Source of the DNA: Hyalangium ruber | GTDB lineage: Bacteria; Myxococcota; Myxococcia; Myxococcales; Myxococcaceae | Assembly (NCBI RefSeq): GCF_034259325.1 | Contig: NZ_JAXIVS010000001.1 | Coordinates: 124,001-188,000 of the forward strand | DNA length: 64,000 bases | Reading direction: 5' to 3' | Shown here: positions 56,997 to 64,000 of the stretch, piece by piece | Layout of the letters: every line of letters begins with the position of its first letter | How positions within the stretch are numbered: the stretch's first letter is position 1 | Program-made: the position numbers and the translations under genes | The notes under the pieces: model-generated | What the model was told of the DNA's origin: nothing | The model's input: only the letters and a program-made list of their open reading frames with translations | Databases searched by the model: none

Positions 56997-57042
56997 GGCA
57001 AGAAGTTGCCCGGGAGCGCTTGCCGGCGGGCAAGAACTTGCC
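56997..57042. repeat. cluster of GGCAAG inverted repeats upstream of the GON-domain genes
   Basis: GGCAAGAAGTTGCC (56997-57010) and GGCAAGAACTTGCC (57029-57042) are 14-bp dyads with starts 32 bp apart, close to three helical turns. A third pairing, CTTGCC (57019-57024) with GGCAAG (57029-57034), lies between and shares a half-site. They end 105 bp before the first GON-domain gene and are candidate operators; they could also form alternative RNA hairpins. Confidence 0.5.
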
Positions 57043-57146
57043 GCCGGGGCACCACCGCCACACTCGTCAGGCAGCCGGCACGAAGGATGCTTTGGAAGGA
57101 GCACAGGCCCGCATCATGTGGGCCGGTTCTCAAGGACTCTTCCGAC

Positions 57147-58328
57147 ATGCCCTCCCTTGCTCGCGCATTACCCGACTGGAAGCCCCTCTGGCTGGCGCTG
57201 GCTGCCACAGCCCCGCTGCTCCTGCCGGGCACCAGTCACGCGGCCACGACCTGCGCCGAGGTGCGCGCGCAGAACCCCTCGGCCGGGGATGGAACCTACT
57301 CCCTCACGCTCGGCGGCCAGCAGGTAGCGGTGCATTGCCACGACATGGCCGGCACGCCGCGGGAGTACCTGACGCTGCCCAGTACCGGCAGCACCACCAA
57401 CTACTCCTATTACGGCAGAGGGCCGAACACGGCGCCTGGCGGGCAGACGACCTGGTACACCAAGGCGCGCTTCGACCCCGCGGCGCTCGCGCTCACGCTC
57501 GATGACACCACCTTCGCCACGAGCGAGGGCTGGAAGCGCTTCGGTAACACCTACGTCTACAGCAGCGCGCTGGCGGGCGCGGGCGACTGCGTGAACACCT
57601 ATTCCCAGACCGGCCGGGGCAACGTCGATCTGACGGGCACACCCTTCGACATCGTGCCTGGCCAGTTCCGGATCGAAGGGAACGTGGCGGCGGGCTCGGC
57701 CACCTTCAGCGGCCCCCAGATCGTCAACCTCACGGGCGGTGGCTACTGCGGCGGCATCGGCACCGGCAACAACCAGCTGCGGCTCGCCTGGCGGTCCGCT
57801 CCGCCGGAGCCGTGTGATTCGGGTGAGCCCAGCATCGTGCTCAATGGCTACCCGGAGCTGACGCTGGAGTGCGGCTCGGCTCCTTACAGCGATCCGGGTG
57901 CACAGGCATTCGATGGGTGCGGCAATCCGATTCAGGTGCATGCCTACAACACGGGGACGGACGCGTCCGGGCCGGGCCCCAACACGAGCGCCGAGGGCTC
58001 GTACTCGGTCTCGTATGCGGCGTGGGATGCGCAGGGACACACGGTGAGCGCCCTCCGGACCGTGAACGTGGAGGACCGGACGGCTCCGACGCTCACGCTC
58101 AACGGGCCCGGGCACAGCGTGCATACGTGTGGCAGCCCGTGGGTGGACCCGGGCGCGAGCGCGACGGATGCATGCTACGGAAACCTGACGTCCCAGGTGG
58201 AGCGCTCGGGTGAGGTGAACGGCTGGGCCGCGGGCCAGTACACGGTGACGTACACGCTGACGGACAGCGGCGGGAACAGCGCCGCCCCCGTGACGCGCAC
58301 CGTGGACGTCGTCGACTGTCCCTGGTGA
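57147..58328 (+). CDS. secreted GON-domain protein with Ig-like repeats
   Basis: A 393-residue secreted protein. The signal peptide ([22 protein letters not shown]) is followed by a GON domain (about residues 35-215): [73 protein letters not shown]. This domain is otherwise known from the end of ADAMTS metalloproteases and from some bacteria. Two cysteine-containing, DUF5011/HYR-like repeats follow (ELTLECGSAPYSDPGAQAFDGCGN; HSVHTCGSPWVDPGASATDACYGN). There is no C-terminal anchor, so it is probably released. It is a paralogue of the next gene; AAGGA lies ten bases before the ATG. Confidence 0.8.
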   Translation: MPSLARALPDWKPLWLALAATAPLLLPGTSHAATTCAEVRAQNPSAGDGTYSLTLGGQQVAVHCHDMAGTPREYLTLPSTGSTTNYSYYGRGPNTAPGGQTTWYTKARFDPAALALTLDDTTFATSEGWKRFGNTYVYSSALAGAGDCVNTYSQTGRGNVDLTGTPFDIVPGQFRIEGNVAAGSATFSGPQIVNLTGGGYCGGIGTGNNQLRLAWRSAPPEPCDSGEPSIVLNGYPELTLECGSAPYSDPGAQAFDGCGNPIQVHAYNTGTDASGPGPNTSAEGSYSVSYAAWDAQGHTVSALRTVNVEDRTAPTLTLNGPGHSVHTCGSPWVDPGASATDACYGNLTSQVERSGEVNGWAAGQYTVTYTLTDSGGNSAAPVTRTVDVVDCPW

Positions 58329-58365
58329 GTCCCGGTACAGCCACCCGGGTAAAGGCATCCGTGTT

Positions 58366-58391
58366 GCAGCGGGCTAAACTCGGCCCGCTGC
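58366..58391. promoter_or_regulatory. 9-bp hairpin between the two GON-domain genes
   Basis: GCAGCGGGC (58366-58374) and GCCCGCTGC (58383-58391) pair perfectly around an eight-base loop. It lies 38 bp after the first gene's stop and 27 bp before the second gene's ATG. It may attenuate read-through between the paralogues or be a regulatory hairpin; no T-run follows. Confidence 0.5.
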
Positions 58392-58417
58392 TGGCTTGTT
58401 CCCAAGGACTCCCAGAC

Positions 58418-60616
58418 ATGACACCCCGCGCGCGCTCCTCCCTACATCGCAAGCCCCTCTGGCTGGCATTGGCCTCGGCAGCCACGCTGCTCCTGCCCGG
58501 CAGCAGCCACGCGGTCGCCTCTTGCGCCGAGATTCGCGCGGGGAATCCCATTGCCGGGGACTCGACCTACACGCTCGGGCTCGGCGGCCAGCCGGTGGAT
58601 GTGTTCTGCCACGACATGGCTGGCACGCCGCGGGAATACCTGACGCTGCCCAATACCGGGAGCGCCTTCAACTACACGCACTACGGTGTTAGCGATAACA
58701 CGTCTCCTACCGGTCAGACGACGTGGTTCACCAAGGTGCGCTTCAACCCCGCGACACTCACGCTCCTGCTCGACGACACCACCTTCTCCACGAGCGAGGG
58801 CTGGATGCAATTCGGAGAATTGTATATCTACGTCAACCCGCTGGGGGGCGCGAGCGACTGCGTGACTTTCGGGTCCGTGACCGGCCGGGGCAACATCGAC
58901 CTGAGGGGCACCCCCTTCGACATCGTGCTCGATCAGTTCGTGCTCGGTGGAAACGAACCCGCGGGCTCCGCTACCTTCAGCGGCACTCAGATCGTCAACC
59001 TCACGGGCGGTGGCTACTGCGGCGGCATCGGCGCCCGTGAGAACCGCTTGCGGCTCAACTTGCGGTCGGCTCCGGAGCGCGAGCCAGAGCTGGTCCACCG
59101 CTATGGCTTCACCACCAGCGGTGAAGACTCCGTGGGCGGCGCGCATGGCACCCTCGAGGGTGGCGCCACGATTGCCAACGGCGAGGTGGTCCTGCCCGGA
59201 GAGGGCGCCTACGTACACCTGCCCATCGGCGGAACCCTCTCCAAACTCCAGGATGCGACCTTCGAAATCTGGGTGAAGTGGAGCCATTCCGAGGCGCCGC
59301 TCTGGGGGCGCATCTTCGACTTCAACGACAACACGCAGCTTTCCATGTACCTGGCCTCGACCCAGTACTCGAAGCTCCTCTTTGGCATCACTGCCCCGCG
59401 TGAGCGCGAGGCGATGATGGTCGCGAGCCACTCCCAGTACCCGTGGGAAGAGCTCACCCATCTGGTGGTGACCATGGACCATACGGAAAGGATCACCCGC
59501 TTGTATGTCAATGGCCTGGAGGTGGCACGCGGGAGCACGGCGCTCACCCCGGCCAGCCTGGGCGCCACCCCGAACGCCTGGTTGGGCCGCTCGCTGGATC
59601 CGCTGACCCCCTTCTTCAAGGGTGCCATCTCGGAGCTCCGCATCTACCGGACGGTCCTGTCACCGAGCCGCATCGCTGCCCACTTCAACGCGGGGGATCT
59701 CCCGCGAGTGCTGGCGACAACCATCAGCGAAGGACCCGCCAACCCCACCAGCCAGGACGCCACCCCTTTCGTCTTCAACGCCAACGTGCAGGACCTCCGC
59801 TACCAGTGCAGCGTGGATGAGGCCCTCTTCCAGCCCTGCACATCTCCGTTCGTCCCCCCGTCCCTCAGCGACGGCTCACATACCTTTCGGGTCCAGGCGC
59901 GCGACACGATGGGCAACATCGAGCCCTCGCCCACCACCTACTCCTGGAGAGTGGACAAGACGCCTCCCGAGACGGGCTTCGCCTCGACTCCCGAGCCTGC
60001 TACCCGTTTGCGAAACCCCACCTTCTCGTTCACCTCCAACGAGTCCCGCATCACCTTCGAGTGCAGCCTGGACGGAGCGGCCTTCACCGAATGCCCTGGC
60101 GTCTTCCCTGCGCTGGACGATGGCGAACATCGGCTCGCCGTCCGAGCGCGCGACGAGGTAGGCAATGTGGACCCCGATGCAGCCCAGCATGCCTGGATGG
60201 TGGATACCGTGGCGCCTCTGGAGCCCGCTCTCCTGGAGCCAGCTCCGGGGCAGGAACTCTTCACGGCAAAGCCTGGCTTCTCCGGCACCGCCGAGCCCGG
60301 CACGAGCGTGACGCTCCTCATCGACGGCGTTGAGGCCGGCTCGGTTCGAGCAGACGATCAAGGCGTCTGGAGGAGCCTGCCCGAGGCTTCTCTTCCCTGG
60401 GGAGCGCACCGCGTCTCCGCCAAAGCCACCGACAAGGCTGGCAACATCGGTCCCCTTCTCCCCGAGGTACACTTCGCCACCTCACGGCGCAGCGCCTACG
60501 CCTTGGGCTGCGCTGCCGGCTCCACCTCATGGCAGGGCTCCTGGCCATGGGCCCTGCTGCTGCTCGGGCTCCTGAGGCCGCGCCCTCGTCCGCCGCATCG
60601 CGCTCCATTACATTGA
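58418..60616 (+). CDS. secreted GON- and LamG-domain protein with MYXO-CTERM-like surface tail
   Basis: A 732-residue cell-surface protein. The signal ([23 protein letters not shown]) and GON domain (about residues 35-225, [40 protein letters not shown]) closely match the preceding gene. It then diverges: a LamG-like concanavalin fold (about 230-415, [45 protein letters not shown]), Ig-like repeats with [16 protein letters not shown] and [16 protein letters not shown], and a C-terminal tail [32 protein letters not shown]. That Gly-Cys, hydrophobic, arginine pattern fits the MYXO-CTERM sorting signal, so the protein is probably anchored to the outer surface. No protease domain is present. Confidence 0.82.
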
Positions 60617-60675
60617 GGCGGTAATGGCTGGCGGACAGGCTGCCACCCATCCGTCCGGGTGTACCGTGTCGTGAT

Positions 60676-60704
60676 ATGACGTGAAGAGGCTCTCTTCACG
60701 TCAT
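60676..60704. promoter_or_regulatory. perfect 13-bp inverted repeat covering a kinase start codon
   Basis: ATGACGTGAAGAG (60676-60688) and CTCTTCACGTCAT (60692-60704) are perfect 13-bp arms around GCT. The right arm contains the first two bases of the kinase ATG (60703-60705), and the left arm contains the purine-rich GAAGAG. In RNA this would fold over the start region; in DNA it is a strong operator candidate. It begins 60 bp after the preceding stop. Confidence 0.7.
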
Positions 60705-62403
60705 GAGCGCACGCGCCTCCCTCTCCTGCAGCACCTGTGGCAACTCAGTGCCCGTGGGAGCGATGGTGTGCCCTCACGATGGAACGCTCGTCCCTGACGC
60801 GATGTTGGGCCAGCACCTCGGCGAGTACGTGGTGCGCCGGCATATCGGCAGCGGGGGCATGGGCATTGTCTACGAGGGTGAGCACCTCACCATCGGCCGC
60901 AAGGTCGCCATCAAGCTCATCCGCGAAGAGCAATCCCAGGGGGCCCATGCCCGCGGGCTGCTGGCCGAGGCCCGCGCGGCCAGCGCCATCCGCCACCACG
61001 GGATCATCGACATCTTCGGCTTCGGTCAGCAGCCGGGTGTCGGCCAGTATCTCGTCATGGAGTACCTGGAGGGCAGCCCCCTCAATGAGCGCCTCCAGGC
61101 CCACACGCCCCTGCCCCTTACCGAGGCCGTCGCGCTGCTCTGCGAGGTGCTCGACGCGCTCTCCGCCGCGCACGCCGTGGGCGTCATCCATCGGGACCTC
61201 AAGCCGAGCAATATCTTCGTTGCCCGGCAATCCAACGGGACCGAGTCCATCAAGGTGCTCGACTTCGGGCTCGCCAAGCGCAGCACCACCCCCCAGGGCA
61301 CCATCCCGCAGACGCACTCGGACGTCGTCGTCGGCACGCCCCAGTACATGTCGCCAGAGCAGGCCCTCTGCGAGGCGGTGAGCCCCCAGACGGATCTCTA
61401 TGCGGTGGGTGTCATCGCCTTCGAGCTGCTCACGGGGCAGCGGCCCTTCACCGGCCGCTCTCCCATGGAGATCGTCGCCCACCACCTGAAGACGCCTCCG
61501 CCCGCGCCCTCGTTGCTCGTGGAGCTGCCCCCCGAGCTCGATGCGCTCGTCCTTCAGCTGCTCGCCAAGGAGCCCCAGCGGCGTCCAGGCTCGGCCAGCG
61601 AGGTGGCGAGCCAGCTCAGGAAGCTGCTCCCGTCTCGGGAAGGCTCCGGCCTGCACTCAGGGCCTCGGAGCGCCCGTGCGCTCACCGCCGTCGAGCATCC
61701 ACCGGCCACACCTCCCACGGCGACACTGCAACCTGCTCCGGGCATTCCGAGCCCCAAGGCCACACCTCCCAAGCGAAGGTCGCTCTGGGGGTGGAGCGCG
61801 GCGGCAGGTGGCGTCCTGACACTGGTCTTCGGGCTGGGCGCGGTCATGACTCGCGAGTCCCATCCGCCGGCCCCACTCATCCCCGCTCCGTCTCTCGTGG
61901 CGCAGCCCGCGACGAGCCCCTCCCTCACCCAGGTGGTGCTCCAGCCGCCGCGCTCCGAGCCGGAACCGATCCAGGCCCTCGCTCCCGCTCCCGTACCCAC
62001 GGCGACAGTCAGGCGTCGAGAGGCCGCGCCCTCCCCCGCCAGGCGGAAGGCGCCCGTGGTGCCTCCGCCCGCCGACGCTCTCGCTGCTTCGGTCCAGCCC
62101 GTGTCCGCACCTCCCGTGCCCGCGCTACCCGAGCCCGCCCCTCCCGAGCCTGCTCCGCAGCCAGCGGCGACCGGGATCCTCCACCTCGTGATGAAGGGGA
62201 CCTGGGCGGATGTCTGGGTGGATGGGCAGAAGCTCGGACGCGTGCCCCCCACCCACAGCTACACGCTGTCCGCGGGTGCGCATGAGCTCGAGCTCCGCAA
62301 CCCGGCCTTCGCGAACTATCGGCGCACACTCGTCATCCCCGCCGGCGGCAAGCTGCAACACATCGCTGACCTGAGCGCCGAGGCTTCCTCCCACTCGCCA
62401 TGA
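60703..62403 (+). CDS. zinc-ribbon Ser/Thr protein kinase with PEGA domain
   Basis: A 566-residue kinase. The N-terminus has a zinc-ribbon-like CSTCGNSVPVGAMVCPHDG (Cys9, Cys12, Cys23, with His25). The kinase domain (about 40-310) has GSGGMGIVYEG, VAIKLIREEQ, VIHRDLKPSNIF, DFGLAKR, GTPQYMSPEQAL, and FELLTGQRPFTG, with all catalytic residues intact. A Pro/Ala linker leads to a membrane segment (SLWGWSAAAGGVLTLVFGLGAVM), a periplasmic Pro-rich stretch and a C-terminal PEGA domain (WADVWVDGQKLGRVPPTHSY). The start codon sits inside a long inverted repeat with no separate ribosome-binding site. The stop overlaps the next gene's start by 4 bp. Confidence 0.9.
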   Translation: MSARASLSCSTCGNSVPVGAMVCPHDGTLVPDAMLGQHLGEYVVRRHIGSGGMGIVYEGEHLTIGRKVAIKLIREEQSQGAHARGLLAEARAASAIRHHGIIDIFGFGQQPGVGQYLVMEYLEGSPLNERLQAHTPLPLTEAVALLCEVLDALSAAHAVGVIHRDLKPSNIFVARQSNGTESIKVLDFGLAKRSTTPQGTIPQTHSDVVVGTPQYMSPEQALCEAVSPQTDLYAVGVIAFELLTGQRPFTGRSPMEIVAHHLKTPPPAPSLLVELPPELDALVLQLLAKEPQRRPGSASEVASQLRKLLPSREGSGLHSGPRSARALTAVEHPPATPPTATLQPAPGIPSPKATPPKRRSLWGWSAAAGGVLTLVFGLGAVMTRESHPPAPLIPAPSLVAQPATSPSLTQVVLQPPRSEPEPIQALAPAPVPTATVRRREAAPSPARRKAPVVPPPADALAASVQPVSAPPVPALPEPAPPEPAPQPAATGILHLVMKGTWADVWVDGQKLGRVPPTHSYTLSAGAHELELRNPAFANYRRTLVIPAGGKLQHIADLSAEASSHSP

Positions 62404-63206
62404 AGCTCCGCCCTGGGCTGTTCATGGTGGTGGCGCTCCTGCTGGTTTCAGGTTCCGCCTCGGCGCAGACGACGGGAATCGAGCACTACGAGTATGGGAA
62501 CTTCGAGGCAGCGGCCCGGCGGTTCGAGCAGGAGCTGGCCGATCCTCAACTGCCCTCCGAGAGCCGGGCGCTGACCCGCATCTACCTGGCGGCCGCCCTG
62601 TACGCCCTGGGGCAGGAGAAGGAGGCTCGGAAACCGCTGGAGGTGCTCGCGCGTGAGCACCCCGAGGTGCGGGTGGATCCCGTGCGCTTCCCGCCAGAGC
62701 TGGTGTCACTCGCCGAGCTCATCCGCCAGCAGGTCGAGTCCGGGCGACAGCTCGCCATCCAAGAGGCCGCGCTTCAGAAGGCGCGAGAGAAAGCGCAGCG
62801 GCGAGCCGTCCTTGCGGTTTCCAGCACGCTGAGACCCGAGGCGCTTGGCCTCTTCGAAGCCGTGGATCGTCGGTGGACCTTGGGGGTGGGACTCACCTTC
62901 CAGCACGGCTCCCTGGAAGGCAGCATCCGCATGATGCTGGGCCATCCCCCGCTCTTCCAGGTGCAAGGCGGCGTGCTCCCGGGCTACGGAGTCTTGAGAC
63001 CCTTCCTGGGCTTGCGAGCCAGCCTGCTGCCCGGGCAGCAGACCTATGGCGTAGGGCCCGTGCTCGGTGGGCGCATCGCGCTGCCAGCCGGCCTCGTGGG
63101 CGTGGTAGATCTGGGAGCCGATTACTTCTTCACCCGCCGGGACGATCTCCAGCGCTTCGCCGTCACGGCCCATGCAGGGCTCGGCTTCGATCTACGCCTG
63201 CCGTGA
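62400..63206 (+). CDS. exported TPR-like / outer-membrane-like protein linked to the kinase
   Basis: A 268-residue protein with a signal peptide (LFMVVALLLVSGSASAQTTG). The first half has two or three TPR-like helices (EYGNFEAAARRFEQELADPQL, YLAAALYALGQEKEARKPLEVLAREHPEV). A coiled helix follows, then a C-terminal region of short alternating strands ending in phenylalanine-rich turns (WTLGVGLTFQHGSLEG, VVDLGADYFFTRRDDLQRFAVTAHAGLGFDLRLP), which could be a small beta-barrel or periplasmic beta domain. It overlaps the kinase gene by 4 bp (ATGA), so it is likely translated with it and may be a sensor or output partner in the envelope. Function unknown. Confidence 0.68.
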   Translation: MKLRPGLFMVVALLLVSGSASAQTTGIEHYEYGNFEAAARRFEQELADPQLPSESRALTRIYLAAALYALGQEKEARKPLEVLAREHPEVRVDPVRFPPELVSLAELIRQQVESGRQLAIQEAALQKAREKAQRRAVLAVSSTLRPEALGLFEAVDRRWTLGVGLTFQHGSLEGSIRMMLGHPPLFQVQGGVLPGYGVLRPFLGLRASLLPGQQTYGVGPVLGGRIALPAGLVGVVDLGADYFFTRRDDLQRFAVTAHAGLGFDLRLP

Positions 63207-63237
63207 CAGGAGCCCTGCCTCGACTGGAGGTGAGTTC

Positions 63238-64000
63238 ATGCCGAGGGACCCATCAGCGCAGGGCGACGCCCAAGAGACCGCGAGCATGGAGGGGCTCCTG
63301 GTTCGTGCGTACCTGCCACCTGTCCGGCTGCGCGTCGCGTTGATCGCCAACAGCGCGGGGGCCAAGGTGTCGCGCCTGCTCTCGCCGGACACTCCGCTCA
63401 TTGTAGGACGCGCTCCAGAGGCGGGGCTCCGCATCGAGGACCAGAACCTGTCGCGGGAGCACGCCCGGTTCCTCCTCTCCGGCTCGCGGGTGCTGGTGGA
63501 GGATCTCGGCTCGAAGAACGGCACCTTCTTCGCCGGCAGCCGTGTCGCCCGCATCGAGCTCACGATCGGCGATGAGATCGTCCTGGGTGGCGTCGCCCTT
63601 CAGGTGCAGGCCCTTGGAGCCACGGGGGACTCTCTTGGCATCGTCCGGGAAGAGCTGATCCGGCACCACCTGGAGGAGGAACTCACCCGCGCCCAGCAGT
63701 TTCGCCGCCCCTTCGGTCTGCTCCTGGTGCGAGTGCTGTCCAGGGGAGGAGGCGCCACGGCAGAGCGGGAAGATGGCTCCTGGATCGAGGCCGTACGCAG
63801 TCACCTCCGCCCGGTCGATCTCATGGCGCTCTACGGCTCCAGCGCGCTCGAGGTGTTGCTGCCGGAGACCGGCGCCGAGGAGGTCCATCGAATCGCCCGC
63901 GCCATCGCGGCCTCGCGCATCGGCGGAGGCGGCCAGCTGCTCGTGGGCCTTGCCCTCTACCCGGCCTCCGGTAGCACCGCGGACGCGCTGTTCGAAGCGG
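63238..64000 (+). CDS. FHA-domain regulator, partial (continues beyond the right edge)
   Basis: The first 254 codons are visible and open to the window end. GGAGG seven bases before the ATG fixes the start. The FHA domain (about residues 45-120) has all key elements: VGRAPEAGLRIEDQNLSREH (Gly-Arg and Ser-x2-His) and VEDLGSKNGTFF. FHA domains bind phosphothreonine, so this is a natural substrate reader for the adjacent kinase. A second alpha/beta domain follows (EELIRHHLEEELTRAQQFRRPFGLLLVRV, VDLMALYGSSALEVLLPET), like the degenerate GGDEF-type domain in some myxobacterial FHA/sigma-54 activators. A sigma-54 AAA+ domain beyond the edge is expected, not seen. Confidence 0.82.
   Translation, partial: MPRDPSAQGDAQETASMEGLLVRAYLPPVRLRVALIANSAGAKVSRLLSPDTPLIVGRAPEAGLRIEDQNLSREHARFLLSGSRVLVEDLGSKNGTFFAGSRVARIELTIGDEIVLGGVALQVQALGATGDSLGIVREELIRHHLEEELTRAQQFRRPFGLLLVRVLSRGGGATAEREDGSWIEAVRSHLRPVDLMALYGSSALEVLLPETGAEEVHRIARAIAASRIGGGGQLLVGLALYPASGSTADALFEA

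Follow-up and report, generated by a model that had tools for sequence, protein, structure and literature searches.

Introduction

The GON domain is known from animal proteases, namely ADAMTS9, ADAMTS20 and GON-1 of C. elegans, in which it forms part of a secreted protein. To our knowledge, no ligand of the domain is known in these proteases. Judged by title and abstract, literature combining the GON domain with bacteria concerned ADAMTS proteases. In the worm, the GON domain alone, supplied with a signal sequence, rescues secretion defects, which establishes that it has an activity there apart from the protease (PMC4517882).

Other described systems are relevant to the proteins that carry the domain here. 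The myxosortase MrtX of Myxococcus xanthus processes and surface-sorts MYXO-CTERM proteins, such as TraA and MXAN_4924 (PMC11980579). Bacterial surface stalks can be built of Ig-like or cadherin-like domains, as in the PF16403 (Bact_surface_Ig-like) family and staphylococcal SraP, and fibrinogen-related domains and intelectins provide a structural comparison for the GON domain itself.

We describe two adjacent genes of Hyalangium ruber, located in a window (the whole stretch of DNA analysed) of 64,000 nt of contig NZ_JAXIVS010000001.1. The reading that we favour, at about even odds (roughly 0.5), is an operon-like pair of adhesin- or lectin-like secreted proteins, which would present the same GON binding head in two different displays.

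Organization of the gene pair

Both open reading frames, their starts and the sequence shared in front of them (CAAGGACTC..GACATG) proved to be real (Table 1), and this leader is kept in most of the 10 relatives aligned. The initial annotation had described the two products as related GON proteins standing without any protease. This was borne out: the PF08685 scores of both lie far over the curated cut-off of 22.6 bits, and a domain profile search detected neither a protease nor thrombospondin repeats in the two proteins. The GON heads are 70% identical as aligned domains (68.6% in protein and 78% in DNA over the codon-aligned stretch), so that their common descent, which had also been proposed, extends well beyond the signal peptides. 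A search of the whole genome (10.77 Mb) returned no GON protein besides these two.

Table 1. Features of the GON gene pair and its surroundings (positions in the window)
Feature	Position	Strand	Details
Palindrome GGCAAGAAGTTGCC	56997..57010	.	first of two in front of gene 1; candidate operator
Palindrome GGCAAGAACTTGCC	57029..57042	.	second of the two, at a spacing of 32 bp; candidate operator
Leader CAAGGACTC..GACATG, gene 1	57131..57149	+	conserved; ATG at 57147
Gene 1	57147..58328	+	393 aa; signal peptide, GON, two cysteine-containing Ig-like domains, CPW end
Signal peptide, gene 1	57147..57242	+	residues 1-32, SHA|ATTC, read by eye
GON domain, gene 1	57246..57797	+	PF08685, 67.9 bits
C-terminal CPW module, gene 1	57804..58325	+	PF16403 x2; two Ig-like domains, end -VVDCPW-stop
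Leader CAAGGACTC..GACATG, gene 2	58403..58420	+	conserved; ATG at 58418
Gene 2	58418..60616	+	732 aa; signal peptide, GON, LamG, Ig-like domains, MYXO-CTERM-like tail
Signal peptide, gene 2	58418..58513	+	residues 1-32, read by eye
GON domain, gene 2	58517..59068	+	PF08685, 56.3 bits
LamG / concanavalin-like domain (Laminin_G_3), gene 2	59198..59677	+	PF13385, 80.2 bits
Ig-like stalk repeats (OmpL47-type model), gene 2	59693..60205	+	NF047446, 46.5 bits
Big_13 Ig-like domain, gene 2	60266..60448	+	PF19077, 70.1 bits
MYXO-CTERM-like tail, gene 2	60506..60613	+	TIGR03382, 15.8 bits (cut-off 15.85); Gly-Cys, hydrophobic helix, Arg-rich end
Ser/Thr kinase and envelope-type gene, downstream of gene 2	60703..63206	+	blastn synteny with the anchored gene in relatives

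Upstream palindromes and transcription

The two palindromes in front of gene 1 are conserved upstream of relatives. The exact motif GGCAAGAASTTGCC is present in 5 copies in the whole genome (reversed-pattern control: 0) and occurs as a double motif (GGCAAGAASTTGCC x2) at two sites, the second of which lies upstream of another protein with a CPW tail. Within the family, the double palindrome was detected in 9 of 96 genomes. In Hyalangium versicolor there are seven occurrences, which include the two GON loci read and sites next to several genes for lipoproteins or secreted proteins. At five loci of other genomes or elsewhere in Hyalangium (L246, L247, L248, L252, L258) it adjoins genes that are not obviously secreted, and it may therefore be more than an operator of surface-protein genes. 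One further gene of H. versicolor (contig C12, L256 678-1628) adjoins the double palindrome and is devoid of a CPW tail; its head is 31% identical to that of a CPW-tail protein encoded on C15.

Upstream of gene 2 the double palindrome is absent, and the stretch between the two genes showed no terminator-like site, which fits a single operon. A pattern scan revealed no sigma-70 promoters. An operon-like pair, presumably transcribed together, is the most likely arrangement.

The GON domain of bacteria

The bacterial GON covers positions 2-57 and approximately 86-192 of the 199 positions of PF08685. As about 30 central columns are unmatched, it may be regarded as a short form of the domain. In contrast to ADAMTS9, ADAMTS20 and GON-1, it is placed N-terminally, after the signal peptide, it is accompanied by neither protease nor thrombospondin repeats, and it contains only four invariant cysteines (73 of 73 aligned domains).

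Of the 96 family genomes, 43 encode GON at least once, next to highly diverse partner domains, and a single protein often contains it in tandem. A phylum search returned none outside the family Myxococcaceae. Confinement to this family is nevertheless too narrow a view, since a contig search found relatives in Minicystis, Nannocystis, Polyangium, actinobacteria, Chloroflexi MAGs and Paenibacillus; the phylum search thus understates the spread of the domain over other myxobacterial orders and phyla.

Several members of the collection are unusual. Five GON proteins (L034, L067, L071, L069, L081) have about 1000 residues, often with two GON domains in tandem, and L069 additionally matches beta/gamma crystallin and Vps62. 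The GON domains of L091, L092 and L093 are very divergent. L091 combines MXAN_6577-type cysteine-rich repeats, an AgmC-like region and GON with what appears by eye to be a fibrinogen-like GGGW end, and L093 looks alike by eye. Record L114, labelled Comamonas sp. KCTC 72670, contains a Myxococcus-type GON protein; genome G066 shares its genus code with Myxococcus genomes, and the label of L114 is probably wrong.

An AlphaFold2 model of the gene 1 GON (window positions 57240-57794) was obtained with a mean pLDDT of 97.1. Its first 43 or so residues align structurally with ficolin, intelectin, tenascin and the procollagen C-propeptide at Z-scores of 5-6; for the fibrinogen-like domains of ficolin, intelectin and tenascin, the rmsd was 1.6-2.2 over 41-44 residues, at an identity of at most 27%. 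Foldseek gave intelectin as the best match (probability 0.99, E 0.12), a profile search of the PDB placed tenascin and XEEL on top (E 0.02-0.08), and the fibrinogen-like NCBIfam model NF040941 matched below its cut-off. C5 and C33 of GON appear to sit at the place of the first disulfide of fibrinogen-related domains and intelectins, whereas the YCDxxxxGGGW motif is absent. Taken together, these lines, each of them weak and none with a significant E-value of its own, suggest that an N-terminal subdomain comprising a quarter of GON is shared with fibrinogen-related lectins.

For the remaining 140 or so residues no convincing structural match was obtained, and no viral relative of the fold was found at E 0.001 or better. 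An hhalign comparison of the fibrinogen-like C-terminus of L091 with the GON profile was negative. From the fibrinogen-like resemblance and the LamG/Ig context we infer a binding role for the bacterial GON. As the bacterial domain is compact, confidently modelled and represented by dozens of relatives, it offers a tractable route to what GON binds.

The probably anchored protein

Gene 2 places its GON on a LamG/Ig stalk, which MrtX would sort to the outer surface of the cell by means of the MYXO-CTERM-like tail. The tail scores just below the TIGR03382 cut-off, and its syntenic orthologue in genome G033 exceeds it with 16.5 bits. The Cys-containing motif, the transmembrane stretch and the Arg-rich end are all found in gene 2; this tripartite layout is kept in six proteins, and the tail cysteine is invariant in six relatives. 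The genome also encodes MrtX (NF040593, 442 bits versus a cut-off of 180, at G000:C1:409326). With both the tail layout and the sorting enzyme present, surface display of the gene 2 protein is likely.

Gene 2 thus resembles the MrtX-sorted TraA and MXAN_4924 (PMC11980579) in its signal peptide, Ig-rich stalk, Gly-Cys/hydrophobic helix/Arg-rich tail and the occurrence of MrtX in the genome. It differs from TraA in the head, which in TraA is not GON, and in a tail that scores marginally under the cut-off.

The CPW module of gene 1

The last 170 or so residues of gene 1 form a module of two Ig-like domains with a Cys-Pro-Trp end, and a genome search found the same module at full length in about ten proteins. 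The C-terminal copies number ten with gene 1 included; they belong to unrelated secreted proteins, and nine of them end in -(N/D)CPW and one in CPTYE. One longer protein of the genome contains an internal copy without CPW. Among the heads joined to the module are propeller-like lipoproteins, a CBM96 and one DUF642-like domain. As several of the carriers look like lipoproteins themselves, the module need not be an anchor, or not simply an alternative one.

The family survey (96 genomes, matches at E 1e-45 or better) found the module in 10 genomes: 12 matches in this genome, 8-13 in each of genus g8, and one and two in two others, counts that include, as the weakest matches, long proteins with internal, non-CPW copies. 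All of the best 30 matches fetched end in CPW-stop, and four cysteines are invariant (34 of 34). The AlphaFold2 model of the module (mean pLDDT 93.8) resembles tandem Ig or cadherin-like stalks, with matches to structures of chitinase Ig-like domains, SraP and InlK. While it consists of two such domains, the module differs from the PF16403 and SraP stalks in being terminal, with an exact -CPW-stop end and four invariant cysteines, and in being largely restricted to the genus of the window and g8. It is a lineage-specific element, nearly confined to Hyalangium-type genomes.

We also considered gene 1 as a truncated copy. This is ruled out, because its -CPW end recurs in the Hyalangium counterpart and in ten proteins of its own genome. 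The initial annotation had regarded gene 1 as the released member of the pair and gene 2 as the anchored one. The sorting tail of gene 2 agrees with the latter; the former fares less well, as a module common to about ten secreted proteins means that the gene 1 protein may be retained rather than free. A role of the module in secretion, stability or association with the matrix or surface would be likelier than simple release.

It is tempting to go one step further and see in the CPW module a hitherto overlooked C-terminal device by which Hyalangium-type myxobacteria sort or attach some ten secreted proteins per genome, whose heads are unrelated, and in the double palindrome the mark of a small regulon of such surface proteins. 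This idea is tentative and we consider it rather unlikely to hold as a whole. If true, gene 1 would encode a GON that is kept at the surface or in the matrix and acts next to the MrtX-anchored one. The invariant CPW end hints that one lineage of myxobacteria may possess, in addition to MYXO-CTERM, a second type of tail for surface proteins.

Gene order, evolution and alternative explanations

The anchored gene and the downstream kinase block are colinear in genomes G033 (80%) and G040 (77%); by blastn, the colinearity covers 58389-63857 with L047 and 58404-63087 with L052. A shortened anchored gene is kept at the same place on contig C4 of H. versicolor. The colinear pair, intergenic stretch included, was found once more, at another locus of that species (contig C16, 74% over 57064-60574). 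The partner differs by genome, being a GON-Ig2 protein, a divergent GON-GON protein or missing. In G033 the free gene, which encodes a GON-GON protein, and the anchored gene are adjacent and divergently read around the same palindromes. The anchored gene is therefore the stable member, and the unanchored partner is variable.

In the trees, the GON domains of the window fall within a clade of 15 rows (100/99). They are not sisters in the best tree; their sisterhood received an AU p of 0.21 on DNA and 0.07 on protein. A simple tandem duplication is consequently not shown, and the data do not reject it. Grouping of the gene 1 GON with its Hyalangium counterpart was rejected on DNA (p 0.029) and not on protein (p 0.158); for gene 2 the values were 0.002 and 0.065, respectively. 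Grouping of all anchored GONs, or of the syntenic ones, was rejected (p below 1e-3). GON sisters within one genome were found in the DNA tree for the C16 pair (100/98) and for G033 (100/99). The likeliest interpretation of these sequences, though not a proven one, is that GON has been copied or converted within genomes.

In an alternative account, domain shuffling brought two unrelated secreted proteins together by chance, with only a recently copied head and leader in common, and no functional pair exists. The many genomes with GON beside very varied partners, the single recurrence of the gene order and the separation of the window GONs in the best tree would all fit, and yet chance does not readily explain why the intergenic stretch recurs with both genes in H. 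versicolor, nor the divergent arrangement around the same palindromes in G033; we find this account somewhat unlikely. The close kinship of free and anchored GONs in G033 and on C16 could instead be taken as a sign of TraA-like self- or kin-recognition, with an anchored receptor and a diffusible or matrix-held partner matching through their heads, and the tail tree groups gene 1 of the window with its Hyalangium counterpart, weakly (81/67). The same kinship is, however, expected from gene conversion or recent copying, which also explains the rejected groupings without recognition. Moreover, sisterhood of the two window GONs is not shown, and among anchored proteins GON is no more variable than LamG. 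We regard recognition of this kind as very improbable.

A third possibility is that the proteins are accessories for binding prey or polysaccharide, whose heads attach the cell, or the enzymes that it secretes, to a glycan substrate. The LamG domain of gene 2, the CBM96 and DUF642-like heads of other CPW proteins and the lectin-related, fibrinogen-like start of GON point in this direction. On the other hand, the pair contains no enzyme, and ligand specificity is not readable from sequence; we rate this option as quite improbable. None of our results points specifically to contact with kin or prey, the two functions suggested at the outset.

We return to a secreted pair, both members of which are probably adhesin- or lectin-like, with one kind of GON head mounted on two supports, a sorting tail and a recurrent CPW module. 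This describes the locus better than the free and anchored duplicate of the initial annotation: sisterhood of the heads did not emerge from the trees, and the partner changes from genome to genome. The MYXO-CTERM assignment draws on layout, MrtX and the G033 orthologue, with the score of the gene 2 tail itself marginally short. Conservation in other myxobacteria was found in part, for the anchored gene in two further genomes and for the order of the pair in one. Within this reading we infer ligand binding (probably to a glycan or the matrix), co-transcription, a role of the palindromes and a function of the CPW module.

The anchored gene of G040 (L052 2465-5017) has a peculiar beginning, as its stop-to-stop frame opens with part of a GrpB match (PF04229), and the gene looks as if it lay in or beside a broken grpB.
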